Source: Protula sp. h YS-2021 (taxonomy: Eukaryota; Annelida; Polychaeta; Sabellida; Serpulidae). From it: a stretch of 64,000 nucleotides of DNA. Location of the stretch: NCBI GenBank assembly GCA_949752745.1, contig OX457032.1, positions 16,470,720-16,534,719 of the forward strand, in the 5' to 3' direction. A model generated the notes under the pieces. That model was not told the origin of the DNA. It ran no database searches and saw only the letters and a program-made list of their open reading frames with translations. The position numbers and the translations under genes were made by a program. Below, one piece after another: positions 4,376 through 52,864 of the stretch; the stretch's first letter is position 1; every line of letters begins with the position of its first letter.

Positions 4376-27152
<22,777 letters not shown>

Positions 27153-32633: not shown

Positions 32634-32775
32634 AGAAGCACTTTTTTTGCACGATACTGGGACCGAATTCGCGAGGTTCAGTACACCACTGACCACCACA
32701 CAGTTATTCTACTCTTTCCTTTAGAAGCACTTTTTATGGACAATACTGGAGCCGAATTCGTGGTACTCGTCCATG
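32634..32775 (-). repeat. Duplicated 3' end of the last actin exon
   Basis: 'agaagcactttttttgcac' at about 32634 followed by 'gatactgggaccgaattcg' repeats, with differences, the sequence at about 32723 that encodes the actin C terminus and stop ('agaagcactttttatggac', 'aatactggagccgaattcg'). The offset is about 87-89 bp and the downstream copy lies in the 3' UTR. Confidence 0.75.
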
Positions 32776-35700
32776 AAGATCCACTGCTGCGTGAAGGAGG
32801 AGAGGTTGGCCAGCGTGGCACCCCCCTGCCACACCAGGTAGCGTCGCTGCTCCGGGCTCTCAACACGCACGCACTTAGCCAGGTTGTTAGGGCACAGGTC
32901 CACCAACTCTTTCTGCATGCGCGCGGCGAAACCAGGAAACATTGTGGTGCCACCTGCCGTCAGGCCACAGAAAAATCATGACAAAAATGCACTACAAGAT
33001 GCTCGCTAATCTGTCTAGAAATCAGTAAAATATTAACAAAAAAATGAGTTCTTGTCAAAGAAAGGAACTTTGTGTGCAATCTCAAGTTACAAACTAAGAT
33101 CAGAGAAGAAAGGGTGTGAGGTGGTGGTAGTGGGAACGGGAAGGGGGAGGGGGGTGGCGGTAGGGGTAGTGTTGTCCGACAGAATGACTTTCTGGCTCAG
33201 GCCTCAATGTCCTTGGTCACTCAATAAAAGTTGTATAGGGGAGGGAGACTTACCCGAGAGTACAAGATAAGTGAGTGCTCAGACCTCAGGTCCTCGGCCA
33301 CCTTCTGCACGCTGTGGCATAGGGTGAGGTGTGTTTGTGGGGGGGGGGGGGGGGGGAGGGATGGAGAGGGAGACTTACCCGAGAGTACAAGATAAGTGAG
33401 TGCTCAGACCTCAGGTCCTCGGCCACCCTCTGCACGCTGTGGCATAGGGTGAGGTGTGTTTGTGGGGGGGGGGGGGGAGGGATGGAGAGGGAGACTTACC
33501 CGAGAGCACGACGTTAGCGAGGAGCTCACGCCTCAGGTCCTTGGTCACCTTCTCGACACTATGGTACACGGCGCGGTGTATCCCCCCGTGCTCTCTGCCC
33601 AACACCCGCGGCTGGAACAGCGCCTCAGGGCACCTGTCAATCACAAGGTTCCCCACATTGTCTCTCCTTGATGTGCTTTGTAATAAGTAAATTATATTAA
33701 TAATTTCTATCTTTATTCAGCTGTCAAAAGTACCACTGTTATAAGCATCTTTCAGCTTCTACTGACTGCTCACGTAAATTGATGATCAGAAGCGGCAAAG
33801 CGGATCGTGGGTGGGCACTAACCCATCACCATCATTGTTATTATGATCACCTTATTCTACTGATTAATCTTTTTTTCTGTCACCTGAAGCGCTCACTGCC
33901 AATAGAGACCACGTGACCATCGGGAAGGGTGTAGTGCTTCTCAAGCGTAATGTCACAATCGTTGACGCGGTAGAGTTCCCGCATGTAGTCCTCCGCCACA
34001 TAACATAGTTCCTCTTTCATGTTCTTGGCGATGTCTCTCTCCGCACTACTTTGCATAACCACTCCACTTTCATGCATCAACTGTCAACAGATTAACATTA
34101 ACATTTTGGTTTCCCGTCCTTTCATGTTACTCATTTCATATAAAGGGAATGTCTCTAAAGTGATGAAGAATTTCTAAATTGCCCAAATATTCGACCCTTA
34201 AGCCCGATTACAAAAATAATGACAGAAAAAACTCGTGAATTTTAACACGGAACCCTCTCCTTTCGGTGTACTGGAACCGAGAGTTTATTCGTGTATGTTT
34301 TATAGAGAGTACGTGTACTGGTACACGTAACTGACCTTGACGAGGTAATCGGTGAGGTCTCTGCCCGCCAGATCGAGTCGATGCGTGGCGTGCGGAATCT
34401 GACAGCCCTCGTACACGGGCACGATGTGACTCACGCCGTCGCCGCTGTCAAACACTAAGCCTGCCACAACAAACACACGCCCTACTTCATGCACATTGTA
34501 CACCAAAGACTGTCCGAAGGAACCTCCCTTAGTGTCCTCGTAAGAAACATATATTTGGTCGTTTTAAGACATTTCGGCCTCGAGGCAAACTCGACCCACC
34601 CCCATAATGTGACTCACGCCGTCGCCGCTGTCAAACACTAAGCCTGTCACAACAAACACACGCCCTACTTCATGCACATTGTACACCAAAGACTGTCCGA
34701 AGGAACCTCCCTTAGTGTCATCGTTGGAAACATATACTTGGTGGTTTTAAGACATCTCGGCCTCAAGGCAAACTCGACCCACCCCCATAAGGCATCGTAC
34801 CTGTCGTGCATCCGGTAGCGGAGAGCACCAGCAAATAGCTTACCTGTCGTGCGCCCGGTAGCGGAGAGCACCAGCACACAGCTTACCTGTCGTGCGCCCG
34901 GTAGCGTAGAGAGCCAGCACCGCCTGCACCTCCACGTATGTCGCCGGCACTGCGAACGTTTCGAACATGAGCTCGAGCATGCGCTCTCGGTTCTTCTTGG
35001 GGTTCTGCGGTGCCTCCGTCAGCAGCACGGGATGCTCGCTGGGGTCCGCACGGAGCTCGTTGTACAGCGCGTGGTGCCAGACCTGGCGACAGGAAGTACT
35101 TCAATTACAGCCATGACCTACTTGCTTGGAAAATTTAAAAGTAATACAAACATCATTCTGCGAAAAACTATTATTTTTCACCAGATTCGAAAGGTAAAAA
35201 TTGAAAACAAACGCACCTTTTACTCTGATTTTGACTACATTCGCACCACATTCCCTCCAAATTTCGGGACTGTCCAAGAAAACTGGTAAGATTAGATGGC
35301 TGGTTTTCATAGAAGTGCCTTTTGACCCACAAAACAGTTTATTTTCGAGCTCCATTAGGCTTTTTTGCAAACAGGAAAAGGTTTATTTTTCTTGATTCAC
35401 CAAAAACGTCTTTAAGAGGTTTTAGAGATTGTATGCAATATAGAGTGGAAAATAAGTCAAAACCATCAGCGACAGCTGTTCAATTCTCAGTGGACTGCAT
35501 GTTATAAAACATTAGTAAAATTGCTGTATAAACATTTTGAAAACATATAATCAAATATTTTAATACTCCTTTTTTTCTTTTCCGTTCAAACGCTGGAAAA
35601 AACCTAATGTGCAACCGCACCTTCTCCATGTCGTCCCAGTTTGTGACTACACCATGCTCCAGGGGGTAGTTCAGCTTGAGTACGCCGCGCATGGTCTGGG

Positions 35701-35869
35701 CCTCAGCACCCACGTACGCGTCCTTGTACTGGCGGGACATCGTCTGCGCGTACTTAGGGCGTCCCACGTAGGCGGGAAACGTCACTGTCGGCGCGTCGTT
35801 GCTGGAGAAGCCGCACTTACAAAAGCCGCTTCCGTTGTCAAGGATGATTGGGGTTTTCAAAGACAACGC
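32721..35869 (-). CDS. Exons 13-18: complete actin domain
   Basis: Six exons give 377 residues, against 375 for conventional actin. Phosphate loop 1 is [11 protein letters not shown], with the Asp at domain position 11 and the Lys at 18, exactly the actin numbering. Also present are [20 protein letters not shown], the Gln of YVEVQAVL (actin Q137), GRTTG, the second loop DSGDGVSH including the catalytic His, [36 protein letters not shown] and the terminal KKCF. ATP binding and hydrolysis residues are therefore kept. The DNase-loop region is one residue shorter and diverged. 'CKCGF' and the overall divergence recall actin-like or testis-type ARPs more than cytoplasmic actin. The intron inside the GRTTG glycine codon matches a classical actin intron position. 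The first exon starts at an acceptor with an in-frame TGA just upstream and no ATG, so the domain needs a 5' partner exon. Confidence 0.93.
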
Positions 35870-38800
35870 CTGTCAAATAAGAAACGTTTATAAATACACA
35901 ATAATAACACTAAAGCTTGCTAGTAACATTACGGTTTTATTTATTTTATAAGAAAAATTTCATTCGTTTTAATAATTTCGGTTTTCTGGATAAGTGGTTA
36001 AGCAAATATGTAAAATATCTTAAATATTGTCAACTACGCCAAGTTTATACGGTTATTAATTATAGCAAGTACTAAGGTTAAAGCCTTGAAATAAGAAATG
36101 AAAACCCGAAACCAAGACAAAATAAAGTCGAATGTAGGGGCTATGCACACAGTATTACGGCAGCTGGTTTCTGCATAGCCTTCAAAGGTAAATTTCACAT
36201 ATTTTTTTAAAACGAAAACATGTATTTAACTGAATAAAATTTTAAACATAAAGACACCACCACTAACGAAACGACAGTCAATTCATAACAATATAAAAGG
36301 GAAATCTGACCTGTGCACTGAAGCTATGAGCGTTGTTTGTTCTGACTGCGGCCCTCTTAAGCCGACCACCGTCGCTATGGCTATCACTGTGGTAAGACTC
36401 TGTCTCCTCATCTTCTGATTGGTGGAAATGTCGCTCACCATCTAAGGCTGATACAGTAATTTTGTCGTCTGTCTTTTCTACACTTTTATCCATGTCCTTC
36501 TTAATTTCCTGCAGCGTTTTTGCATTCATGGATTCTATCAAAGCATCTTCAAATTCCTGTGTACTCAACCCTTTGATCATGACGTCACCATCTTCTTTAT
36601 CTTGACCTTGAATTTCATTGTCAAGGTCATCATCAGAAGAAAAGCTTCCATTGGTTGGGTGAAAGTCACGTGGATCCCCTTCCCAGCTCCCCTCTTCTAT
36701 CGGCACAAGGTTTGACGTCTGAATTTCGGACTGCGTGACGGATGACTCCGAATGTGCTACGGAAAGTTCCGAATGCTCCTGGGATATTTCTTCTGCACAA
36801 TCCTCAACAATTCTTGGCGAATCCATACTATATACTTCTAGATCTAACATAGATGACATACTGGAATCATGCAGCGATGTACTGGAACTATGTACCGGCG
36901 ACCGTCGTCCCTCAGTGAGACGCGAGCTCTCTATTGCGTAAGTATCATCAGGTGACATACCACATAATCGGGGAGATACGTCATCAATGTTCGTTACAGG
37001 TAAATCGTCAAAACTTTCTTCGTTCACATCACTCGGTAAGACAAAACTCGTGTCCGTGACGTCAGCATTATGACGTACGTCAGCGTTATGACGTACGTCA
37101 GCTGGCTGGTGCTGATTGGTTTTCAAAGGGCTCTGTTCGTGAACGCCTATTGTGTCTGGCTCCATGCTGCTACCGGCATCTATGTCTTTGCGCCTTACAC
37201 CGTTCTGAATGAGGCACGGTTCAGTACCGCTAGTATCTTGGATACTCGTGTGTGTATCCTGCATACTGGTATATGTATAACTGGTGTCCCCATTACGTGA
37301 CTCCGTGTACTGCAGCTCCTTCATATACGATGACGCCAACGCTTCAAATTCCTCATCCACGTGGCTCTCTGTCAGGCTCTCTGCATGACTGTCTGTGTGA
37401 CTCGCTGCGAAGCTCTCGCCGTGGCTCCCTGCGAACCCACTCACCGACCTGGAGGATTCAGCCACAGACGCGTTAGCTTTGGACGTCGATGAATTGGCAC
37501 GTGACACAGATATCGACGGAAGAGCTTGGAAGTGATTCTCTTCTAGCATCAAATCGGAGCTTCCCTCGTTTCCAGAGTCGGAACCATCGTCCGCAAAAAT
37601 GACAGCATTTCTACCCTGAACTTTTGCATCCCTGTTGCAGTTTTGGTCTAACGTTGCTTTTGATTTATCCGTGGCCTGTTTCTCTTTGCTCGAACTTAAT
37701 CCCTCCTTTCGGTTGGAATGCGCCGCGTTTTTCGTCAGGTCGTCTTTACTAAGCGGTTGCTGCAGCGCATCTGTAGGCGCCTTCGGTAATGCGCGATTTT
37801 CCCTGCTCTGTCCCACTTCTTGTTCAGGTTCCCCACTTGTCGCTCGTGAAATAGTTTTAGTCTGTTTCAAAACCATATGCACTGATTTATCAGTATTACA
37901 ATCCACCAGCGGTGTTTGTTTCTTTGCGGTACTCTTCATATCGCTGTAGCCGTTCTTCAGAGGTATAAAGCTCGGTGGGAAGGGTTTATCCTGCACACCC
38001 TGTACTCGCGGCGTAGAGTGACTGCGAGGAGAGTGAGACACCGCTGTCACGTGCTTCACAACGACGCCGTTTTGTGGCGCCACTGATGCACCCTTGTTGC
38101 CGTTCCCTTTATTTCCAAGGCTTGGTGTATCATCTCCTCGAGGCTCTCCATTTACCGCGGAATTCCTCTTGTTAATCTTTGCGTTGACTTTCTCCAGAAG
38201 TAGACTCGCCTTTTCGGCATGCCTGGCTGAGTTAGCACTGCTGTTCCTCCGCACCATGCTGACAACCCCCGCACTAACCCTGCCTCTGCTTTCCCCGTTC
38301 TCACACGGAGACATGCCGTCTTCTATGACGTCATGGCACTTCACTGTGACGTCACTCACGCTTCTTGTGATCTTTGTCGGCACTTCTACATTCATATTTG
38401 CTCTTACAGTCGGAATATCCTTGCCATTTGAATTCGAAGCAGATTGTGTTTTCTCGCAATTTGACTCGGCACTTTCGTTTCGACAGACGTCAGATGGGTT
38501 CCCTCTGTCGCTTTCCGTGTTGGCTCCGACAGCAGGTGCGACAAGATCACCATGATTCGGAAGTGGGAATGCTTTAAGAGGTCCTCTCGTACCGTTGTCG
38601 TTTTTACCGAAGAAACTGACTGCTTTTCTTTCCTTCTCTTTTTCCTCGGGCACAACAGTTTCGTCAACGACACTTTCACTATCTGTAGTAGTACAATGTG
38701 CATCGACGCTTCCTCCATTTTGCTCCGGTTCCTTTACCTCAACAGAAGGAGGTGTTTCGCCACCTGCAGAAGGTGTTTTTGAAGCAGGATCTGAATCTGC

Positions 38801-41800
38801 TAGTGGTCTACCTACGACACGTGACCTGTCTGGGGACTCGCTGGCAATCCTCGTATAGTCTGCCGCTTGGTGGATTTTCTTTATACTTACACAGTTTATT
38901 CTTTCCTCTATTACGGAATCTACGTCGCTCCTTTCCGCCTCTGCTGATTGGTTGTTTTTGAGACCTTTCTGCGATTCGCCTTTCGTCGTCTTGTTGTCGC
39001 AACTTCGAACACTTTCACTGGTGTCTGATTCACCGGAAAATATATTTTGTTTTTGTTTTAAGTGCTTCCCTACCAACCTTTCAAATCGCTCATCCAGGGC
39101 CGCTCGTTCGTCGTCTGAAAGGGACCTTGACCTCCATTTCTCCAAGTCCTTTTTTGGTGAATTTTGTAGTGAGACGTAACCCAGATCCTCAATATTTTTC
39201 TGCCCATGTCTTTGCTTGTGGCCAAAAGTCGGCAAGGGTTGTTCCTCATCTATTTCTTCTTCACTTGTTGTTGTTACCACCCTGCGCACGGCCAGCTCTG
39301 TGCCTGACCTTTTCCCTATCACTACTTCCGGTTTCGTTTTTGATTGGGATTCCCTTACTTTCACTTTTTGATGCTTATCTCTTTTCACTTCAGTTTCACT
39401 GGACTGACAGCCAGCACTGCTGACGTCACGCGAATTCACCGCCTTGTCGCCGCCTTGAGTGGGAGGGGTCGTCCCCCCGTGGCGTGGAGACGCTGTGTGC
39501 TGTGACTGTTGTCCCCGCAGCTTTTCCCTTTCTCGAGGAGATTTCCTACGCTTTTGAACCGCATCAAGCGGTCTTTCTATCATTTCCACCGGGGAGCTAC
39601 GGTTACTGGTATCAATATGGGAGTCACACACCACACCCTGCTTGGTATTACCTTCCCCGTCTAATTTACCTATTTCTCTCGGCGTCTCATCCTCTTGAGC
39701 TTTCTTTTCCTCCATCTCATGAATCTTCGCTGAGAGATTGTCTCTGAACTGCTGCAAATAATTCGACCCAGCGGATCGGGCGGAAGCCTGAGCGGATTTG
39801 GGTGATGTAGGGAAACGCTGCTGAATAAAGGTAGCCGCATAGCCGCCGCCATTACGAGCCGCACTCCCCGGGCAGACATGGCGACTGGCACTCTCCGGGC
39901 AGACATGGCGACTGCCACTCTCCAGGCTGGTTTGTGTGAACACGCCACTCTCCTCGCTGCCGTTGTCGGTACTGTTTGTTCTCAGCATGGCGCGAGGTGT
40001 ACATTTCGGAGACATCAGCTTGTACTTTCCAGATTTCTGAAGCATCTCTTCTTCTTCCTGATCAAAATATATAATACACAACTTTGTGCCAACATTGAAC
40101 TGCATTTTCTCCCAGCGTTATTAATATAATATATTTAAACGTATATAAAATTACAAACCTATAATTTTACATTCACGAAAAAAAAACCAGACTTACTGTT
40201 ACAAAAAATAAATTGCTTAAATTATGAGTTTGAAATGCCCATCAAATACCAATTTTTTTGACAAATTAAGGAAAAAAAACAATGTACGGAAACTAACGAG
40301 AAGAATCTTCTCTGTGCGTCTCAGTGTTTCCTCAACCTCGTTCTGAGTCATAGCCTCCTTGTCAATCTCAAGGTCTTGTAGGCGGTCCTTCTCGCGCTGT
40401 AGCTCCGCCTCTTCAGTCACTCTGCAATACCATTTTTTTTTGTTTTGAAGTGGAACGTTTCAATGAAAAATAAGGAAACTAGGGTGCTTTATTCCCAATT
40501 TACATAATGCCTCGAGGCTTGCCGATAATTGCTTATAAAAACTCTTCAAACTGCCGTTAAAATGGAAGAAAAACTTCACAAAAAAAAAACAAACAAACAA
40601 AAAAACAAAACAAAACAAAAACAAAAAAAAACAAAAAAACAAAGAAACAAACGAACGAAAAAAAGCCGAATTTCCCTTGTGCACCAACCTGCCAGCAACG
40701 GCATCTTGGTACTTGCCGACATATTCCTCAAACCCGTCCGCTTTGCTTGAGCCCTCCGTTGACGATGGCCACACCTCCGTCTCAAACGAGCCTAATTTTT
40801 GCTTATTGATCCATTCCTGGATGTCAATGCCACAGGCCTTCTGATTGGTCGAGCCCTCTGGGGCCGTGCCAGAAGTGCTTTCCTGCAGATCCGGACTGGC
40901 TGTAATGATGTCGTCCGCGAATGATTGACGTAAATCTTTGGCGATTTTTTCCCCTCTGCTCCTCTTTATGGCCTTTTTATTGTCTGATCGTGACTTCTTT
41001 GTGTGTTTTGATTTTGATTTGGAACTTTTGGTGTGCGATGAAATGCTTTCCGGATTTTTTAGAATCACACATACTTCTTTCGAATGCTTTTCGTTCTTAT
41101 AATCCACAGAGCTTAAATTGTCGCGATAAGAATCAAAAGGAACATCAGTTGCCTTCTCATTTTTATTGTCTGTGTTTGTCAGTAAACTATCAAGATCCGT
41201 TAAATCCATCACGTTTGAGTTTCGCAGGAAATCAGATGTCATCTTTTCATTAACGTTTGATTGCTTAGAACTCTTACTGACACCCGTTTCCAAAGACTCA
41301 GACGCTGGAACACTGTCAGATTTGATACTTTCTTCTACAAGAATTTTTATGCGATGTTCAGTAGCAGGCGACATTTTGGGCTCACCCGTGTGATCGTCTG
41401 ACGCGTCACACATTGCCGCCATCATGGTGAATTTTTCATCCGGGCTTAAAGAACTGTTGACAATCGTTTCCACATTCTCTTGCGTCAAATTCGGTTTTCC
41501 TGAGTTTGAAAAAGTTATTTTACTCTCCGCTTTCTGCGTCAGAGATTCCCTGACGTCTTGCGGGAGATGATGAGAGTCCCTGAATAGCGGTGAGCCGTCG
41601 CCGAAATCGTACACAGATAAGTCACTTTCTTTCAACAGGTCTGGTTGGCTAAGAAATTTCCTATGGTTTAGTGCCTGGGGCTGCGATTGGTGGAAATACG
41701 AGCCGCTGATTGGCACATCACTGGACATCCTGGAATGTGGATAGCCCCTGGCTGACTGAGAATAATCGGCCGGTGGGCTCATCAGCAATTCATCCCGTGA

Positions 41801-44800
41801 AACACTGGATGGCAAATCGGATTCGACTTCTCCAAACTTTGTCTTTGATTTCTCTGGATCACCCTGGATAGTCCCAGATGTGCTGTTAGCACTTGACATC
41901 GAGGCATTCATTGGGGAATAAGACTTTTGTGTGTCCAGCTCTTTCGGGGATTGTTTCATTGGTGTCCTTGAGTCACGTGAGTATTCTTCTGCAGTAGGGT
42001 TATCACCACATTTATCCTCAAATACGATTGGATCAGAGTGAACAGGAGTTTGTAACAAGAACGCTGATTGGTTCATCGGATCAGGAGAATGTATTCCATG
42101 GTTTGATTCTACAGTACGGCTACCCGTTGGGACACTGGCGGGAGTTTCACTGACACTCAAGACAGTTCTGGATTCTTCGCTGTGACCGACAGACATATAG
42201 CTCTCCTCCGTCACGGAGTAGCGTACGCAGTCGTGTGTGGCCGCCCGTGTACCCCCACCGCTAGCTTCCGGTATGGAATCCATTCGCTGCATGTTCTGTG
42301 AGCTTGAGCCAGATCCCGGTAAGATCTTCTTACGCGCTTCTCCGTAAATCTTGTAGCTTTTTTGCCGCATCAATAGACCGCCGCTACCCAGACTGGACGA
42401 CAGGGGAGCGTCATTATCAGACATACTGCTGTGCAGGAACGACAGATCGAGCCGCGGCACCGGCGAGTAGACGTACGACATGCCGCCTCTGTCGGCCGTC
42501 ACGGACGGGTATGACGTCAGCCCGCCACTGTCCACCTCGTCGTGTCCCTCCAGCCTGGCGCCCGTCTCGGAGTCGTACTCGCTGGTGGTGTACGGCGAGT
42601 AGCGACAGTTGATGTCCTGCACGGTCGACACTTTCACAGGCGTCTTGGGCCGTGTGCTACTCAAGGGCGTTTTATTCCGGGCGCTGTGTTCCTCCACGTA
42701 GTCACTTATAGTCACTGTTTTGCGACGCGACTTGCTTTTCGGGGTGCGTTTCGACGGCTGAGAATCTAATTCCTCGTCTAAAATATCCAGGCTTTCTGTC
42801 GATTTGGAATACTTTGCTAATTTGGTTCTTTTGGGCTTCTTTGGGGATAATTTTACTGGGCTTTTCCGCCCGCTGTCACTGTTAACACTGTTGTTTAGGA
42901 TCGGGGTAATGGAGCGCAGTTGAACCGGTGACGGGGTCAACAATGCCCGACTCATCGTCTCCTCAAACTGGCCGGCGATCGGACTCTGATCCGGATCAAA
43001 CCGGCTCAAGTCCAGCATCGATGTGTTCACGTCAATCATCATGACGTCATTGCTGTCGCTAAGCAGCGCGTGGCGCCACCGGGTGACGTCACAGAGGTGT
43101 TGCTGCAGTGTTGCCATGGCACTAGGGTGGGCGAGGATCTGGCACAAGATGTCCACTCTGTAACAACAGGAAGAGGTGCCCTAATTACACCAAATTCGTG
43201 AATCACCAGATTGGCCTCACATCTATTGTCTTCAAAGAGGAATACGTACTCGTCTTTGGCAAATTATTTAAATTTGTTCAGCTGATCCAGCAATTCCTTT
43301 ACATTACAATACATTATACCGTATCTGTGTCACTACTTAACTATATTTAAGCTACTCGTTTATTATGAGAAACACATATCCAGCAATGTAACTGACAAGT
43401 GGCTACACGTCTTTGAATTGTCATTACCTATCCTCCCCTCTCTTCCTACCCCGCACTCTTGCGAGTAAATAATAAATAGGCACGCGTTTACATTCATATT
43501 TTAAAATAATAGTCCATTCCCGCTTTTTCTTGCAATATAGTCTTTCGAGAAGACAGTATCGGCTGACCTGTGAACCAAAACTCGAGCCTGGTTTCTGACA
43601 CTTAAGTCGTCAATCACAGGTAGGATGGCCTTGAACTTGTGTAAGTAGGCGGAGCTTGGACACGGATGATGCAATACATAGTTCTCTATGGAAACAAGCC
43701 ACGCCTCTGTGGCGTAGTACTGCGAACCGCTCCCTGATTCGCTGATATCCAGTAAATGCACCGGAAGGAACCTCAAGGTGCGCTGATACCACTTTGATAG
43801 CTGAAAGACAGAAATATAAAGAATTAGCGTGATTATTAAGAACTGAAACTTAATCAATGTGTATCATCAAATTCTCTTTCTGCTTCTCAGTCCTTGCTCA
43901 ATTTGCGATTTGCGTAAAGCCCCATTCTCTTTCTATTTTAAGAATCTATTCCGATATTTTTTTCAAACGCATTAATTTTTTTTTTCAAAATCTGTTATAT
44001 TTTTCCTTGTTACATTTAAAACTGACCAGATAATTTCTGGGAAATTAAATAACACACTATTTAACGTACGTGTGCAATTTTAACATTTTTTTACTTGCAG
44101 GAAGATCAACTGATAACTAGATCTGATAAAGGATACGAGTGGTGCAATCAAAAAAGAATACTTGACATGTATGGTACCCATATATTTATTATATATAACA
44201 CAAACATAATAGTATACGCTCAGACTGAAGCCCTCTCAACAAAAACTAACCAGCTGTTAATCGATTTATCCACAAACGCAACAAAATACATGCTGGGTAA
44301 AATAGATTTTCATACGGAATATATGTTTAGTAACTTATTTTATGCCAAATGCACATGTCTATATTTGGCATCACACCATGCCACAATAACGTCTACTATC
44401 GACATCCGTCAAGAGCCTCACCCCTTCTTTTATGATCATACAGCTTTTATGTCTACTAAATTGCATGCTCGGGGGGAAACAACAGCTTTAGCATTAAGCA
44501 TTAGCTGACAGTCTAAAAACGATTACCGGCTATTCAACGAACCAACGCTGTAGTAATTTGACGATTCACCGGCCATTTATACCGATGAACTGTGTTATAA
44601 TATACATATATATATATAAACCAGAAAGATGTTCAGAATAAACAGATTTTCAGAATTTCTCTGGCGAAAGGTGAATTCGGCTCAAGCTTGAGTTCGGGTG
44701 TTACAGATGTCTGAATTATTCTGTTTTTCAACACACAGCTACAAGACACAGACTATGGCAATGCAATGAGTGATTTGTTGTTTGGTAGGATGGTTAATAT

Positions 44801-47800
44801 CTAAGGCCAGTATCCGATAAACCTGACACCCCTCCGTTAAGTAACTCATTAAACCAACATCCCGCTCAAAAATGATAAAACTACATAAATTAAAAAAAAT
44901 AAACCTAACCATTACGTTTCCGGTTTTCAGTGACGAACTGAAACCATTTACAAGCAGCAAAACAACTAAAAACCAAGCAATAAAAAATTGCTTCAATAAA
45001 TAACCTCGACTAATTTACCTTCACCATGAGAAAAGCTATATCGTAACCAAAACCCGTTTTGTCTATTTTGAAAAAGTCTTAATTTAAATTAAAGATCGCA
45101 TGTTCAAAAAAAAAAATGAATCTCCACTGCTCCGTGATTGTAATTAAACCTTGATGAGGGAGTCCTGTAAATCCAGGCCTCGAGCGAATCCTGCTCCTTG
45201 TCTACTCTCCATATCCTACCAGACAGTATTGTTAACATGCAAGTGTAATAACGTTGGTAAGTAAACTGTATTTCATGCGTGTTATGGCGGAGTTTTTTTT
45301 AGTTCATACCATGTTTGACGACATTCCTCTAGAATCGATACATAACAAGTTTTGAAAGAGACAGCAAGTGTGTCTTAAGAATGTCTAGACGACTGTAAAG
45401 TGTTGCTAGTACGAACGTTTGTACATGGATAATTCTTAATGAATATTTAACGGTATTGATAGGGTACTATTCTATTAAAAATCCGGACTCTTTTAATCGC
45501 TGGCTGAAGAAAAAATGGCAAATAATTGATCAGCTTAAACCCAAAAGTACAAGTATATGACAGAAATCTAAAAAGCAAGCTCGCCATTTATTATTATTAC
45601 CGGTATTATTATAATATTGCTATCGTTATCGTTATTATTATTTTGCTAGAATTTTTTCAGATAAAAGAAAGAAAACGATTTTGTTCAGATTACTCCGCGC
45701 CTTATAAACGGGGTCAGCAGTCACATCGGATTACATGAAGGCGTAATGATTTACATGGCAAGAAGACGCTTTCGATCTACTTAAAGAATGCCTGATCCAG
45801 TAATTTTCTGTTCTGCCTTTTATTAAATGATAAACAGAAGTGAAATTAAGCCCTGCCCCCACGCCCCCCTCCCCCCTGCTTGTTATTTCACTCTTTTCCG
45901 TTTACCTTTTGCGAGGACAGATAAAACTGATGCACATTCTCATACACTTGGTGCTTCTTCTCTACGGCCGTCTTAAAGATGCCAAGTCTCGTCTGGAAGT
46001 GTCTCGCGTACACGAGAACTGACTGGATATCGTTGACGCTGTTGTCCTGCAGTAACGTGCTCTCGATTTTCTTGCCAATCTTCTCCGCTAGCCATAAAAC
46101 ATTCTGTAAGATAGCAATGAAAACTTGACTTGACTATTATAATTTTAAACACCAATTTTCGAACTGTAAGTGGGCTGGATCAACTTCTTGTTACAACGTG
46201 ACTTAGCCACGTGACTTAAACCCACATGTTACACAAATCACATGCGTTTCAGATTTATCTGCACGTTCCTCTTATCATACGGAGACACAAACATAAGTTT
46301 TTACTGTTCGATCGTTTCGTTGTCATCAATATCGCATCCTGACGTACATATGTATTTATTCATGTATATTCAACTTGGACTGCTTTTCCATTGATATTCT
46401 AAGTTACCATAGTAACTGTTTTACGTCCCCTGGCGACTTTCAAACGTTTCCTTTTGATAACCCAGAATCGTGGTGACTGTCTAGTTTTCATATCCTAAAT
46501 CACCATGGTAACCGCCTTACGTTTGCTATTGCGTAGAATCCTAAATCACCATGGTAACCGCCTAACGTTTGCTATTGCGTAGAATCCTAAATCACCATGG
46601 TAACCGCCTTACGTTTGCTATTGCGTAGAATCCTAAATCACCATGGTAACCGCCTTACGTTTGCTATTGCGTAGAATCCAGTCTCAAAGTGGTGTAGGTA
46701 CAGCTCGGCTTTACTCAGGCAATCGGCAATTTCCGGATCCTGGTTCACCGTCGGAAAACCTACTTCCTCTATCCAATGTAACACCTATTTTTTGAGAAAC
46801 GAATGACAAAATCGAAAAATTACAAACTTAAAATAATTTTAAGCTAAAATTTTTTTATTCATAGCGTTTTGCTCAATTCTTAAATTTAATATTTTACTAA
46901 AAAAACTCCCTTTTCATTAGGTTAAAAATAAACTCGAGACAAAAATAATATTCACGTAACTTTTTTATCTACGTCAGTCATGGCAAGTTTGTCTGATAGA
47001 GTAATCTTGAGACAGAAAAGGGTTCGACGTCATTTTACTCTAGCCTTGACCTAGTATCCGCACACCTTATCCGCTTTTGCCTTGTATTTATCCGTTTTCG
47101 ACGCCTGCAGTAACCTGGATTCCGCTTCCTGCCATAGCGTCATCAAATCCTGCTGTGATGACGTCAGCTCTTTGTGATGTCTTTCCACTGCACTCTTGTA
47201 CGTCACCATAAAGGGGGTGGACGCGATTGTGCTTAATACCGAGTCAGTGGTGCCCGCGCTCATCTCGCCAAGCATCCCTCGGCAATCCTCCATCACCGGC
47301 TCCATGTTTACATCTCTGAAAGGTCAACAAGCATATCAAATAATACCTTATAAATGATTTTATTAAAGAAACAAAGAACAAAGAAAGGAAATGGGAAAAA
47401 AAATCTTTCCAAGCGGCATTTTAGGGCAATTTGCTAATTTTCTGACTTTTTTATTTTGTGTTTTTTTTTCATTCTTTACCTCATGATCTGCGCATATTTC
47501 TTCCTGATATTGGTAAGCAGTAGCTGCACTTGCTCATGCTGCGCGGGAATGTCACACTCCTGCAATGCTGCTAGCTGCTCCCTTGCTTCCGCTAGTCTCA
47601 CCCGTATCAACGCCACGGCCTTCTCCAGAGCCGTGAACCTCTACAACCACATTACAACACATAAATAAAAGCAAAGGTAAGCCATATAACAAAGTGTCAG
47701 CAAGCGTCGAGCTATAAATAAGCTCAAAGGTGTTTTCGTAGCATGCTCGTGGTTATGTGGTGGGATGAGGGGGAGGGGGTGGAAGGGGGGTATGTGATTG

Positions 47801-50800
47801 TGCCGCAAAGTAACAGCGGAACGGGGGGAGACGGAGCGAAGCAGTAGAATGAGGAGCCATGGGCATGAATGATGGGTGGCGGACAGGTGCAAATGAACAC
47901 GAATAATAACCGGAAAATTGATATGAGGAGTTACGGAGAGGATAAAAGTGGAAAAAGTGACGGATAAGAAAATATGGGCCAGACGTAGCGGAAAAGAATA
48001 AAAGGAGGCAGAGAGGGTGACTGCCGGGTAGGGGGGTTACGGGAAAGCTGCACGGCACCTGATAGCAGTTCATATAGCTGTCATGGCTGTATGCGAGCGT
48101 GCCGCCGAACTCTGCTGTCCTCTCCGCCACGTCAATGTACGCATTTAGCTCCCCGGTCTCGCTCACAACCACGGTCTGCAACAGTCACAAGTACGTCACG
48201 AGTTACAACATTACGTACCTCCCCCACCCCACCTACCCAACTCTGTGGTCCTCTCCCTCATTGTACGCGGCTCCCCCGTCTCGATCACAGTCACAGTCTG
48301 CAGTACTCACAAGTACGTCACGGGCCGCTATATCATCACCCCCGCCACCCCATCACCCTCACCCTCCCAAACTCTGCTGTCCTCTCCCCCACATCCCTCG
48401 CAGTCAGCTCCACTCCTCACTTACAACCGCAGCCTACAACAATCAATGACGTCACTAGCTATGTCATCACCGCCTCCCCCAATCAAACTCTGCTGTCCTC
48501 TGCCTCACATTAATGTACGCAGTCGGCTCCTCCGTCTCGCTCACAACCAAGGCTGCAACAATAACAAGCCCCACCACCACCTCCCCCCCCCCCACCTTCC
48601 CCCACCCCCCTCCCCACCTCCCCCCGAGCTGACAGCTCCTTAAACACATGAGTGTCTGACCTAAATCCACAACAAAAGTGTAGAACTTGAAACTGACATT
48701 CCATAGAAATTTATTACAAATTTAAAATAGACAAAAATCTAATTTCTTCTTTTTATCAAAAAGATAATGAATATTAAGTGCCATAAAACTTCAGATTTAG
48801 AAGGAAAAAAGAGAAAACAGAAATCTCAGTCCCATCCCCTCACACATACATCAGCCTTATCTTTTCTTCAACACTTCAATATCTTTTATACATAAGAAAA
48901 TTGCGAAACAAGTTTTCTTTTGAGCTCTGACCAATATATCAATAAGTAACATACGTTATTGATATGCCTGACATATCGCATTTCAGTTTTTACCAATACC
49001 AACATCTTTCAAGTTTGTGATTAGAATTTCAGTGTATTATTTGAGCAAATTTATTGAACTCCTCAGAAAGCATATTAATCTAAGCCCAAACGTGACGTAT
49101 CAAAAACGTCACACATTTTCAGCCAATTAAAAAACCATCTATGGAATGCACATATTGATGAAGTTCAAGATTTTGATGTCGATGTATGACCTCAAGTTTA
49201 AGTTTAAGATTACTGCAAATTCGTTTCTTAACGCCAGTCTCTTAATGTATATTTGTGAGTATCTGTATGTCTGCAGTTTTCTCTCTCGCTATATAATATG
49301 TAACAGTATTCACTGCTGGTCAGTGGGCTTATTTCTTACTCGAGACATGTTATTTACATGTATTTACACTATTTGCTCAAACTCCCTGAAGCATTCAGTC
49401 AATTCGCGCAGTGAAGCACTTTGAAGCTCAGGAAATACGCGTATTGCCTAGAAAAAATTTTACGGAATTCATGGTCAAAACGAATACGTGAATTCCGTGG
49501 AAATTTCCAGTAATACGCGTATGCCTTGATTACGTGAATTTCATGTCACATATATATCACATGCTAACTGTTTTTTTTTCTTTCATTTACGCAAACACGC
49601 GCAAAATGCCATGACTGGACGAGAAGTTCTTACGTCAAACGCAGACTGTAGCTTGGCGTGTCTCTTGCCTTGCTTCGGGGCGACCAGCTTCCTGAACACT
49701 TTGTGGGCGTCCTTGTTCCTCGGCGGTAGGGCGTACAGCACAGCCACTGCCCCAGGACTCCCCGACTACAGTTATCAAAATACACAGGTATTATAACATT
49801 CCTGCATAAAAAGCAGTAGGCGCTGCATCATACAGATAATTTCTCCGGCAAGAGAGGGCGGGGTGGGTTGGGGTAAAAATCTTGGACATTTTATTATGTA
49901 CTTCTGCATAGTGCAAAAAAAAAAAAAAAAAACAAGAAAAAATAACATCATATTATTTAAAATAAGAATTCTGAAGCAAATAAGAAACCAGATATTTTTT
50001 AGGTATTATTTTAATACGGTGTTACATCTTTAATCTTGCCTGTTTTCAAACTTAATTTGCAGTGAAAATTTACCATTCGCTTTCCACAGATTTGAAATGA
50101 CTCACAAGACCAGATGGTTTCTATTTTTCATTGCAAAGCACAAGACTGATGTTACTGTTACTTTATATTTTTTCTTACTTAATTAACGTCTTTTACTCAG
50201 CAATGCTGAGGTGAAATTGCAACACATCAATAACCAATCAATACAGTGCGTCACTGCAGTTTGAGTTCATAAGAACCACGAGCAAACAACAAAGAAGGCA
50301 AAATGTAAATAACGAACCATCTGCATTAAGGCATGTCGTGGGCCTTTACTTTTTATGCTTTCAGGGCATCATTTTAGCAAAGTAGGTCCGTTTTGTGGCA
50401 TCACACCACAATTTTAGCCGAGTTGGTATATTTTTTGACGTCATATTTTGAAATGATCCACGCAATGAGGAACCAGCAGCTTCACGTAGCTTTAAGTTCT
50501 ATTATACTTTTATAATCTTTATAACGAAAGGTCTCGGGGTGGCCGAGCTGGGGGGGGGGGGGGGGGGGAAAGGGGGTTAAATGGTCACCAAGAAGAAGTA
50601 TGTTATTTTAGTACAGAAAATTGGAACTTTCAAAAAAGGAATTTTACTTTTTGGCTTTCTCATTAGTTAAAAACTTTTCGCGGCGGGTCGACTTTTTTCT
50701 GGAGATTACCAGCTAATGCTGGCTCTGTTAATTCTATAAGCCACAGAAACAATTCTGTAGAACCTACAAAATTCCACAGTCAACTTTGAGACAGAAAAAA

Positions 50801-52864
50801 TCTTGAGGAAAAAAGTTATAACACGTCAAATAAGACAAATAGCGAGTGCCCAAACCGTTCAATTACGCTCAGTCTGAGAGATATATAGCTCAGATTAAGG
50901 CATTTATTGGTAGAAAAAACATTCTTCCCATGCATAAATAAACTGGCTTAAAGCTGTTACAAGAAGTATTAATCAAGAGTCAATCATGACTTGACACATT
51001 ACCTAAGAAAACACTTTTTGGTTCAAAGGGGTCATTATTCGGCGTATTTATAAACCGAAATAAATTTTTAATTTATCGTCAGGTCAAGGTCAAAAACTAA
51101 AACAACACGTACACTGTTATTTGAGTAAAGTATAGTTTAAGGATTTAGGGGTCTGCAAAATGTCTCCCAGGCAAATACCAGACGATCGCTGACCGCAAAT
51201 TTATATGTCCAATAGAAATTAAGTAAAGCACTAAACATGAAATAAAGACTCACTTCCTCACTCTCCACATATATAAAACTCACGCATGTAAATAAATTAA
51301 AAAAATAAAAAATTTAAAAAAAAATACAGAAAATATCTAAAATAGGTTAATCTAATCCGCATAAGAAGTGAGAAATTTTACTTATCCAGTCCTTATCTGT
51401 GTTATCTGTGTCCCACCTACCTCGTTATCAGGGACTCTGTTATCGCAGTTATCTCGAACCTTTTTTTCAGTCTCGATGTCTCAGCGACGCCGAGATAACG
51501 CGAGAATACCGTATTGCTTTTTAGAAAAAGGTTTGATTTTGAATTCCGTGATTGGTGATATAAAACACTGCTTTAGCTTAGCTAACCTACTGCTTCGTAC
51601 CGACCCGGATCCAAACCCGTGACCTTTGGAGTACCAGACAAGTACTCTAACCAACCGAGCTAACGGTCATCCCTATTGTATTGTATTGGAGTACTGTGTT
51701 TAAGTAGAGTACCTGATTGCTTGTACTCATTACCTGTAACTGCTCCAGCGTTTCCATAACGATGACGACTGTTTCCTTGGAAACAGCTTTGAAATCCACG
51801 AGAAAACTGAATCCATTTTCGCGGCCATCCAGCGGCAGCGTATGGATATACTGATGCAGCAGAGTGATGAGGTGCGCGGCGGAATATTTGATGTGCACCA
51901 GGTGCAAACTACCGGTCTGAAATGCAAAAATTAAGTTGCCCTTCCTGTCGTGGCCGCCTACAACAGAAAACCACAAGATACAAACAGGTGATTTTTTTGT
52001 TTTGTTTTATTTTGAAAACACAAAACGATAATTACTGCGTCACAAAGACATGTCACAAAGGCTCATTCCCACGCCATTTACGTCAGTCTTGTTGGGTGCA
52101 GCTGTCGTCAGAAAATTTACAGATCAGTTCTTAAAACTGAAGCTTATTTTAGTACTCAGTTATGTTATAATATCAGGTATGTGATTATTTCAAACAAAAT
52201 AACTTTGAAAACAAGTCAAAACAACATAATATTATCAATATAGTCCGACCCACAGGTTCCAAATATCTCACTGGCCGGCGTATTTACCGTACACGTCACC
52301 TGTATATTAACCGAAAACGTCACATAACGATAGGTCATCACAGCAATATTCTTTTTACTTATCACCTGCGTATTTTCCGTACACGTCATCTGCTTTTGTC
52401 TGCACACGTCACCTGCGTATTGTCCGTGGACGTCACCTGCGTATTTTTTGTCGACGCCACTTGGGTATTGTCTGTACACGTCACCAGTGTGTTCTCCGTG
52501 CACGTCACCTACGTGTTGTCTGTAAACGTCACCTTCGTATTCTCCGTAACGTCACCATTCGTATTCTCCGTATATGGCATGTACGCATCTCTATATTCTG
52601 TGTACACGTCATTCGGATGGACTCTTAACTGTGTATTCTGTGCACATCTCGTCTCTGTACTCTCTCCGTACACGTCATTTGCCTAGCCTACATACACACC
52701 ATCTGCGTATTCCCAATCTAGTCTGCGTGCATTCTCCATACAAATGTTTGGGACAATATATCAGCACATGTCAGCACATGTCAGCACATGTCAGACGTCA
52801 CCACAACATACTCACCTGGCAGCGTGATTACTCCCGATTTAAGTAAATCCAGTTTATGACTCAT
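32721..52864 (-). CDS. SEC14-spectrin-disordered-actin fusion protein, 18 coding exons (predicted)
   Basis: Exons, 5' to 3': 52864-52816, 51957-51734, 49765-49634, 48175-48059, 47640-47480, 47315-47066, 46784-46659, 46103-45906, 43800-43568, 43157-40689, 40421-40298, 40057-36311, 35869-35621, 35082-34887, 34460-34336, 34080-33884, 33633-33500, 32953-32721. They total 8,964 nt, 2,987 residues plus stop, with every phase matching. Parts: SEC14 domain (1-174) resembling SESTD1 and the SEC14 heads of Rho-GEFs; spectrin-like helices (175-500); Ser-rich disordered sequence (500-2610) broken by a charged coiled coil (about 1320-1385); actin domain (2611-2987) ending KKCF. A lipid-binding head on a long tether with a terminal actin fold suggests a membrane-to-cytoskeleton linker; that role is inference. 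Exon 12 reads into a stop ten codons past its donor, so an isoform without actin, or two separate genes, is possible. No named gene with this architecture is known to me. Confidence 0.6.
33240..33590 (-). repeat. ~123-bp tandem copies of actin exon 17 end and donor
   Basis: The 3' half of exon 17 with its donor ('cttacccgagag' on the + strand, at 33495) recurs at 33374 and 33249, followed each time by 'cctcaggtcct-ggccac' and separated by G runs of variable length. The two extra copies encode a related peptide up to the donor but have lost one base relative to the genuine exon, so using them would change phase. They look like exon relics. Confidence 0.85.
34424..34789 (-). repeat. 183-bp direct tandem duplication across the actin exon 15 acceptor
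   Basis: Segments 34424-34606 and 34607-34789 are nearly identical. The genuine copy contains the acceptor and the first 37 coding bases of exon 15 (34460). The second copy places an identical decoy acceptor at 34643, which the splicing machinery meets first when coming from exon 14. Confidence 0.9.
34790..34920 (-). repeat. 43-bp tandem array copying the actin exon 14 donor
   Basis: The exon 14 end with donor occurs three times with exon-end positions 34887 (genuine), 34844 and 34801, a 43-bp step. The first two carry a full 'acag|gtaagc' donor and the third a weaker 'gtac' version. A 43-bp shift changes the phase from 1 to 2, so only the first keeps the actin frame. Confidence 0.9.
36311..40421 (-). 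CDS. Exons 11-12: charged coiled coil and 3.7-kb disordered exon
   Basis: Exon 11 (40421-40298) encodes [20 protein letters not shown] and continues in phase into [15 protein letters not shown] at the start of exon 12 (40057-36311), a short charged coiled coil. Exon 12 then gives about 1,230 residues of Ser-, Glu-, Asp- and His-rich sequence without a recognisable domain. It has small internal repeats, for example ADVRHN twice near 37070 from an 18-bp DNA duplication, and [16 protein letters not shown]. The donor CAG|gtcaga at 36311 closes it in phase 0. Reading through the donor meets a stop at 36278. Confidence 0.88.
40689..43157 (-). CDS. Exon 10: 2.47-kb exon, Ser-rich disordered segment
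   Basis: One uninterrupted exon of 822 full codons follows acceptor 'gttacag|a' and ends at the weak donor 'ggcag|gttggt'. It begins [20 protein letters not shown], still helical, then becomes low-complexity and rich in Ser, Thr, Pro, Lys, Asp and Glu, with many Ser-Pro sites and basic patches such as [12 protein letters not shown] and SRRGEK-like runs. No folded domain was recognised. The length and lack of stops in an AT-rich setting show that it is coding. The composition suggests a phosphorylated tether or scaffold. Confidence 0.88.
43568..47640 (-). CDS. Exons 5-9: spectrin-like helical region
   Basis: Exon 5 begins [20 protein letters not shown] and exon 6 carries [20 protein letters not shown], both helix-forming with heptad-like hydrophobic spacing. 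Exon 8 reads [15 protein letters not shown] then [20 protein letters not shown], the W-L and Leu pattern of a spectrin repeat. Exon 9 continues with [16 protein letters not shown]. The region follows the SEC14 domain directly, as in SESTD1 and the Trio family. No RhoGEF, SH3 or PH domain was seen. The 1.1-2.1 kb introns carry no additional exon that I could recognise. Exon 7's donor lies inside a 46-bp tandem array. Confidence 0.75.
46486..46690 (-). repeat. 46-bp tandem array copying the exon 7 donor
   Basis: On the + strand 'cgccttacgtttgctattgc' begins at 46513, 46559, 46605 and 46651 (46-bp step). On the minus strand each unit contains the last coding bases of exon 7 (codons for FYAIAN) and a good donor, aac|gtaagg (one copy reads gttagg). 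The first donor, at 46659, gives a phase-0 join to exon 8. The unit also contains 'caccatggtaac'. Confidence 0.92.
48059..48580 (-). repeat. Exon 4 with three degenerate tandem copies upstream
   Basis: 'actctgctgtcctct' on the + strand begins at about 48108 (inside the genuine exon) and again near 48240, 48369 and 48487, each followed by recognisable exon 4 coding sequence and an acceptor-side 'ctgca' segment. The furthest copy is still open and reads [20 protein letters not shown], against [20 protein letters not shown] in the true exon. All copies lack the second half of the exon and its donor. Confidence 0.82.
48059..52864 (-). CDS. Exons 1-4: SEC14 (CRAL-TRIO-like) domain
   Basis: The ATG at 52864 opens [17 protein letters not shown], joined to [12 protein letters not shown] in exon 2. 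This corresponds to the 'I-x-L-P-G-G-x-D-R-x-G' start of SEC14 domains in SESTD1, Kalirin/Trio and related proteins. Exon 2 continues with [16 protein letters not shown], the core strand and helix. Exon 3 carries [12 protein letters not shown] and exon 4 [15 protein letters not shown], matching the 'L-T-x-D-F-G-G-x-L-x-Y-x-H' end of the fold. The resemblance to SESTD1 is the closest I can recall. Binding of phosphoinositides or other lipids is known for relatives and inferred here. Introns 1, 2 and 3 are 0.9-2.0 kb. Confidence 0.85.
51599..51672 (-). repeat. tRNA-like sequence (SINE head or tRNA pseudogene) in intron 2
   Basis: The minus strand reads 'ggatgaccgttagctcggtt' then 'ggttagagtac', a good A box, with a 5-bp anticodon stem (agtac/gtact) around a 7-base loop, and ends with 'ggtcacgggtttggatccgg', a degenerate B box. 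The overall layout is closest to a tRNA-Ile-like gene. The acceptor stem is imperfect and the T loop is off consensus, so a functional tRNA is unlikely. Confidence 0.5.
52270..52790. repeat. ~24-bp minisatellite in intron 1 of the fusion gene
   Basis: From 52270 to 52700 the words 'cgtattctccgt' and 'acacgtcacctgcgtattgt' repeat with a period of roughly 24-26 bp and much divergence. Just before the exon 1 donor, 'tcagcacatg' is repeated three times (52758-52790). Frames inside are artefacts of the repeat. Confidence 0.8.

Follow-up and report, generated by a model that had tools for sequence, protein, structure and literature searches.

A predicted gene joining a SEC14 protein to a complete actin domain in the serpulid annelid Protula sp. 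h YS-2021

The window analysed here comprises 64,000 nucleotides of Protula sp. h YS-2021 (assembly GCA_949752745.1, contig OX457032.1, positions 16,470,720-16,534,719; contig 9 of the searched genome of 863 Mb and 218 contigs). On its minus strand a gene model from 52864 to 32721 joins 19 exons into 3,009 amino acids, with a frame that is open throughout and a single stop at its end. The 5' half consists of 13 exons (52864 to 36311, 2,632 codons without stop) and starts with a SEC14 domain, the 3' half is a six-exon actin (35869 to 32721, 377 codons) with its own stop. The gap at the junction measures 441 nt, compared with 164-1,968 nt for the 17 introns of the two halves. We read the locus with moderate confidence as one spliced gene, in which a SEC14 protein would be joined to actin via the splice from 36311 to 35869. 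Splice sites, reading frame and both domains can be read directly in the sequence, the join itself we infer. A single gene is favoured by the open frame, the pairing of two strong splice sites, the lack of a start in the actin exon and a gap of intron size. A first-pass annotation of the same DNA had counted 12 exons before the junction and 2,987 amino acids; its frame was exact, but an additional 66-nt exon leads here to 13 exons and 3,009 amino acids. The features below are all on the minus strand and follow the gene model, with further evidence where named.

52816..52864, minus: exon 1, with the initial ATG of the SEC14 gene at 52864; donor CAG/gtgagt, score 10.6
51734..51957, minus: exon 2 (SEC14)
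49634..49765, minus: exon 3 (SEC14), weak acceptor (-0.1)
48059..48175, minus: exon 4, end of the SEC14 domain; residues 4-170, encoded by exons 1-4, match kalirin SEC14 (E = 1.8e-6)
47480..47640, minus: exon 5, start of the middle region (spectrin only according to the first-pass annotation; no spectrin match)
47066..47315, minus: exon 6
46659..46784, minus: exon 7, weak acceptor (-0.1)
45906..46103, minus: exon 8
45150..45215, minus: exon 9, 66 nt, uncertain, weak sites; its 22 residues are absent from the total of 2,987
43568..43800, minus: exon 10
40689..43157, minus: exon 11, mostly of disorder-type composition
40298..40421, minus: exon 12, charged stretch, weak donor CTC/gttagt (1.3)
36311..40057, minus: exon 13, 1,249 codons of disorder-type composition, junction donor at its end (splice score)
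35870..36310, minus: gap of 441 nt, an intron if the gene is fused; rival acceptor at 36084, poly(A)-like motifs at 35973, 35945 and 35941
35621..35869, minus: actin exon 1 in phase 0, beginning without an ATG
34887..35082, minus: actin exon 2
34336..34460, minus: actin exon 3
33884..34080, minus: actin exon 4
33500..33633, minus: actin exon 5
32721..32953, minus: actin exon 6 with stop codon; Pfam Actin over the whole open reading frame, E = 6e-119

The 66-nt exon has a weak acceptor (1.3) and a donor of 4.8, and the frame stays intact with or without it. Other weak sites of the model are the acceptors at 49765, 46784 and 40421 (1.8) and the donor at 40298.

The actin half matched the Pfam family Actin (PF00022) from position 5 to 410 of the 410-position profile with 397.7 bits at a cut-off of 27, and the best match to a solved actin reached 511 bits. 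The complete domain, the natural stop and the lack of an ATG in its first exon, all claimed in the first-pass annotation, are visible in the sequence. The window actin shares 217 of 374 aligned residues (58 %) with a canonical actin of this genome. The nearest other matches in the genome were canonical actins as well, with 56-57 % over the long exon and at most 71 % over shorter exons; a second copy of the window actin was not found in the genome, and in viral contigs scanned for its relatives three stretches fitted a pattern, none of which was confirmed. Four-fold sites were saturated against one canonical copy (0.724 of 98 differed, 0.720 expected) and near saturation against another (0.634 of 101, 0.713 expected). 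Saturated silent positions together with 217 of 374 conserved residues argue for an old gene under selection and against a decayed copy, thus the window actin, as judged from its codons, is old, divergent and maintained by selection.

The functional sites were compared residue by residue, with a list of positions for each site. At the ATP site, 19 of 23 listed residues were identical, the changed ones being 16, 210, 306 and 336. Conservation was lowest in the D-loop (4 of 15) and on the barbed face of subdomain 3 (3 of 11), and higher on the pointed face of subdomain 4 (8 of 17), in the plug (8 of 13) and in the target-binding cleft (11 of 15). The usual acidic N terminus of actin is probably lost. 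The D-loop and the longitudinal contacts that a conventional polymerising actin keeps have changed here, and the diverged D-loop and subdomain 3 barbed face argue against ordinary copolymerisation.

The five introns of the window actin lie at canonical positions 86, 151, 193, 257 and 302, those of the canonical genes at 43 and 123 and those of the divergent C4/C5 group at 43, 123, 169, 205, 269 and 309; none of the five is common to either set. Position 193, in phase 0, is the one of the five that is found also in an Arp2-like gene. A FastTree calculation on a query-anchored alignment of the actin family gave no firm placement (support of 0.57 beside the Arp2-like gene). The clusters of divergent actins (G000:C4:36134221-36157458 and C5:55234231-55244460) have up to six common intron positions and are 60-79 % identical to canonical actin.

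Inside the actin gene, exon-intron borders are partially repeated in tandem: 183 nt occur twice with 96 % identity at 34424-34789, 125 nt twice with 96 % at 33238-33487, plus a shorter third match, and 43 nt three times at 34798-34926, with 72-91 % to the reference copy. These repeats duplicate splice-site sequence. Just past the stop, at 32634-32671, lies a second copy of the gene end (33 of 38 nt match; none of 2,000 resampled sequences was as good), which in translation reads REFGPSIVQKKCF.

On the SEC14 side, residues 4-170 matched the SEC14 domain of kalirin among the sequences of solved structures, while Pfam CRAL_TRIO reached only E = 0.0097 and 16.2 bits, under the cut-off of 22.6. The SEC14 domain of the first-pass annotation is backed by the kalirin match in spite of the sub-threshold profile. 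The spectrin repeats in its title are unconfirmed: after SEC14 none were detected by comparison with the sequences of solved structures in the PDB or by Pfam on the pieces scanned, which were exon 13 and the first 608 residues. Pfam revealed no ankyrin repeats in these pieces, and no RhoGEF domain, which was looked for only there and only by this method. The middle region has no recognised domain. Exon 13 and most of exon 11 are of disorder-type composition, a statement on composition only; the linker of this type amounts to about 2,000 residues. In genome searches limited to scoring the best candidates, neither the SEC14 part nor exon 13 turned up a second time, and thus no paralogue reveals the natural C terminus. 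From its SEC14 match, the protein of the 5' half is probably membrane-binding.

The splice sites were scored with tables built on actin-family loci elsewhere in this genome; of 51 introns collected there 50 were used, the one with a GC donor being dropped. Some training introns are doubtful, two of nine rebuilt actin models having broken (L016, 215 amino acids; L018, 51 amino acids). The junction reads CAG/gtcaga at 36311 and tttgacag/GCG at 35869, both in phase 0, with letters and phases as given in the first-pass annotation; the in-frame TGA that it placed directly upstream of the actin exon is present, as the second codon upstream. The donor scored 8.84 (training mean 7.6), a value reached by 15 of 3,861 minus-strand GT sites, itself and the true donors included, and the acceptor 9.58 (training mean 9.5), reached by 18 of 3,556 minus-strand AG sites, true sites included. 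When the 18 model donors and four duplicated copies are left out, seven decoy donors in the 64 kb are as strong as 36311, and the chance expectation of such a donor within the 33 nt before the stop of exon 13 (36278) is 0.004. The phase match by itself is worth only 1 in 3. The ten codons past the donor differ from the preceding exon: an equally high hydropathy was found in 7 of 1,240 windows of exon 13, an equally low GC content in 18 of 1,239. Looking foreign to exon 13, these codons indicate that the exon most likely ends by splicing. Splicing at 36311 is likely on these scores, the acceptor partner is less sure than the use of the donor itself. Within the gap the best donor is 36106 with a score of 3.7, and the three donors there that have a matching ATG, in phase and likewise within the gap, scored -0.5, -1.0 and -2.4. 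The rival acceptor at 36084 was also compared with the actin acceptor; the two resemble each other no more than chance allows, since 462 of 2,000 resampled sequences did as well.

For the start codon, 13 other first-exon places of the actin family were surveyed over the 25 codons before them; they lie in the 12 of 20 genome stretches that showed an N-terminal match. An in-frame ATG was present at 10 of the 13 places, the four canonical actins each having their own, compared with none upstream of actin exon 1 in the window.

A number of observations weigh against a single gene. Two donor-like sites inside exon 13 go unused, 37449 (8.83) and 39670 (8.46), and neither is in phase with the actin exon; the former nearly equals the junction donor, which shows that chance can produce such sites. 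Third-position GC is 0.42 in the last 300 codons of exon 13 versus 0.77 in the window actin and 0.75 in a canonical actin; across the free actins of this genome, two broken models excluded, it ranges from 0.39 to 0.75. The matched exon lacked an ATG at three surveyed places: L016 at 2179 is a fragment, L022 an Arp1-like exon that does not contain the start, and L023 an Arp-like gene. The start of L023 lies probably in a separate upstream exon, which makes a short 5' exon feasible for the window actin. Such an exon could end within exon 13 at 36439, where ATG/gtgagc offers a donor of 5.4, within the range of the model donors, and would lead to a free actin of 378 residues. The acceptor at 36084 scored 9.96, is in phase 0 and, joined to exon 13, runs for 16 codons to a TAG. 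Behind it lie three poly(A)-like motifs, AATAAA at 35945 and 35941 and ATTAAA at 35973, where about one is expected from the intron density of 2.25 per kb; the AT content of the gap, 0.71 versus 0.62 in introns, tempers this excess. The single fused gene of the first-pass annotation thus fits the sites, the frame, the missing ATG and the gap size, but rival exons exist at acceptor 36084 and donor 36439.

From the same features two adjacent genes could be built, a SEC14 gene ending at the 36278 stop or with the 36084 exon, and an actin with its own promoter and a short ATG-bearing 5' exon, for example that of 36439. The codon usage of the actin, which differs from that of exon 13, is in line with this arrangement. 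We consider it unlikely: the strong, phase-matched pair 36311/35869 would be a coincidence, poly(A)-like motifs occur at the above density in these introns anyway, and an ATG before a moderate donor would be expected occasionally in several kb. The gap has no CArG box, but neither have two of six other actin upstream regions, one of which covers just 1,205 nt. None of the poly(A)-like, TATA-like or CArG motifs is decisive. Alternative promoters and ends could also yield several products side by side: the fusion, a protein of the SEC14 half alone, and an actin whose N-terminal extension is shorter and begins at a methionine of exon 13. This exon has 21 in-frame methionine codons, the last one 61 residues before the junction, and one CArG box, and the rival acceptor and donors exist; an internal promoter would be hypothetical, and we regard this combination as improbable. 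It is very improbable that the locus is operon-like, with a spliced leader whose terminal AUG provides the start codon after trans-splicing to 35869. Flatworm leaders are described as ending in AUG (PMC12582326), the actin exon begins in the alignment about where the canonical methionine would fall, and poly(A)-like motifs lie about 75 nt upstream of 35869. Against it, all four canonical actins of this genome bring their own ATG. Flatworm mitochondria use code 9, whereas mitochondrial COX1 of this genome reads more sensibly with ATA as methionine (code 5). That the actin is a copy in decay, its start already gone, is hardly credible: decay would fit the missing ATG, the pieces of exon ends repeated in the second and fifth introns and the partly repeated C terminus past the stop, but 377 open codons with GT-AG borders, the conserved ATP site and the saturated four-fold sites do not. 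The COX1 mentioned above (L029) occupies an open frame of 609 codons and appears to carry additional residues at either end.

If the SEC14 protein and actin are fused in one gene, the N-terminal SEC14 part would place a protein of about 3,000 residues at the membrane, and the linker of about 2,000 residues would hold out a complete C-terminal actin unit. This unit, ATP-binding, would keep most of the target-binding cleft without the usual D-loop and acidic N terminus, and would recruit actin-binding proteins or sit at a filament end and not copolymerise freely. We suggest only tentatively that a real fusion works in this way, anchored at the membrane as a docking unit or as the end piece of a filament; that a tethered actin nucleates or caps filaments there, as proposed in the first-pass annotation, would be speculative. 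A shorter isoform that stops before the actin may be made as well, through 36084 or the stop at 36278. That the gene represents an old, selected invertebrate fusion of a whole actin onto a SEC14 protein, a membrane-tethered ATP-binding protomer on a flexible arm of 2,000 residues that arose independently of POTE-actin and filactin, has in our judgement a little less than an even chance.

Actin is nearly always a free protein, and the first-pass annotation considered actins almost always free-standing and the architecture unusual. Unusual it is, but with POTE-actin and filactin in print not unheard of. According to PMC7073761 and PMC8292509, POTE-actin (POTEE, POTEF and kin in primates) is membrane-associated, carries a complete actin as in-frame C-terminal domain, as the window protein would, and has a predicted spectrin-like helical part. 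Its N-terminal part consists of a cysteine-rich portion and ankyrin repeats and its actin is a beta-actin retrogene joined in primates; the window protein has SEC14 instead, no ankyrin repeats in the pieces scanned, and an actin with five introns and 58 % identity to the canonical actin of its own genome. Filactin of Dictyostelium discoideum is likewise an actin preceded by a long N-terminal extension, but its actin domain is, according to PMC2441452, extremely homologous to conventional actin, whereas the window actin is divergent and its extension would be a SEC14 protein. For SESTD1 and Trio8, domains including SEC14 are listed in PMC4536496. SESTD1, Trio and kalirin share with the window protein the SEC14 lipid-binding domain on the N-terminal side; no actin domain is described for them, and the window protein differs by a much longer linker and the lack of a detected spectrin repeat. 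The actin family of this genome also includes Arps and divergent actins (C4, C5, C2, C6), whose identity to the window actin is moderate; the canonical and the C4/C5 divergent genes have mostly their own ATG. No SEC14-actin fusion was among the matches listed in the open-licence literature. The fusion, if real, would be a variant of known C-terminal actin fusions with a new partner, SEC14. It would add to the few published cases of actin as a domain a further independent origin at a C terminus, in an invertebrate lineage. A long-kept membrane-tethered actin would show how actin can become a fixed part, and would allow a direct test of what a covalently anchored actin does to filaments.

The nearest recognised gene on the actin side is NUP210-like and lies on the opposite strand, its last, weak match about 8 kb away. 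An argument from this distance is weak, because the open reading frames in between lay outside the Pfam scan. The exons of this nuclear pore gene extend over 12642-24554 on the plus strand, with Ig domains 6 and 9 over their cut-offs and a third match below. At 25632-26511, three overlapping minus-strand open frames are built of a short tandem repeat.

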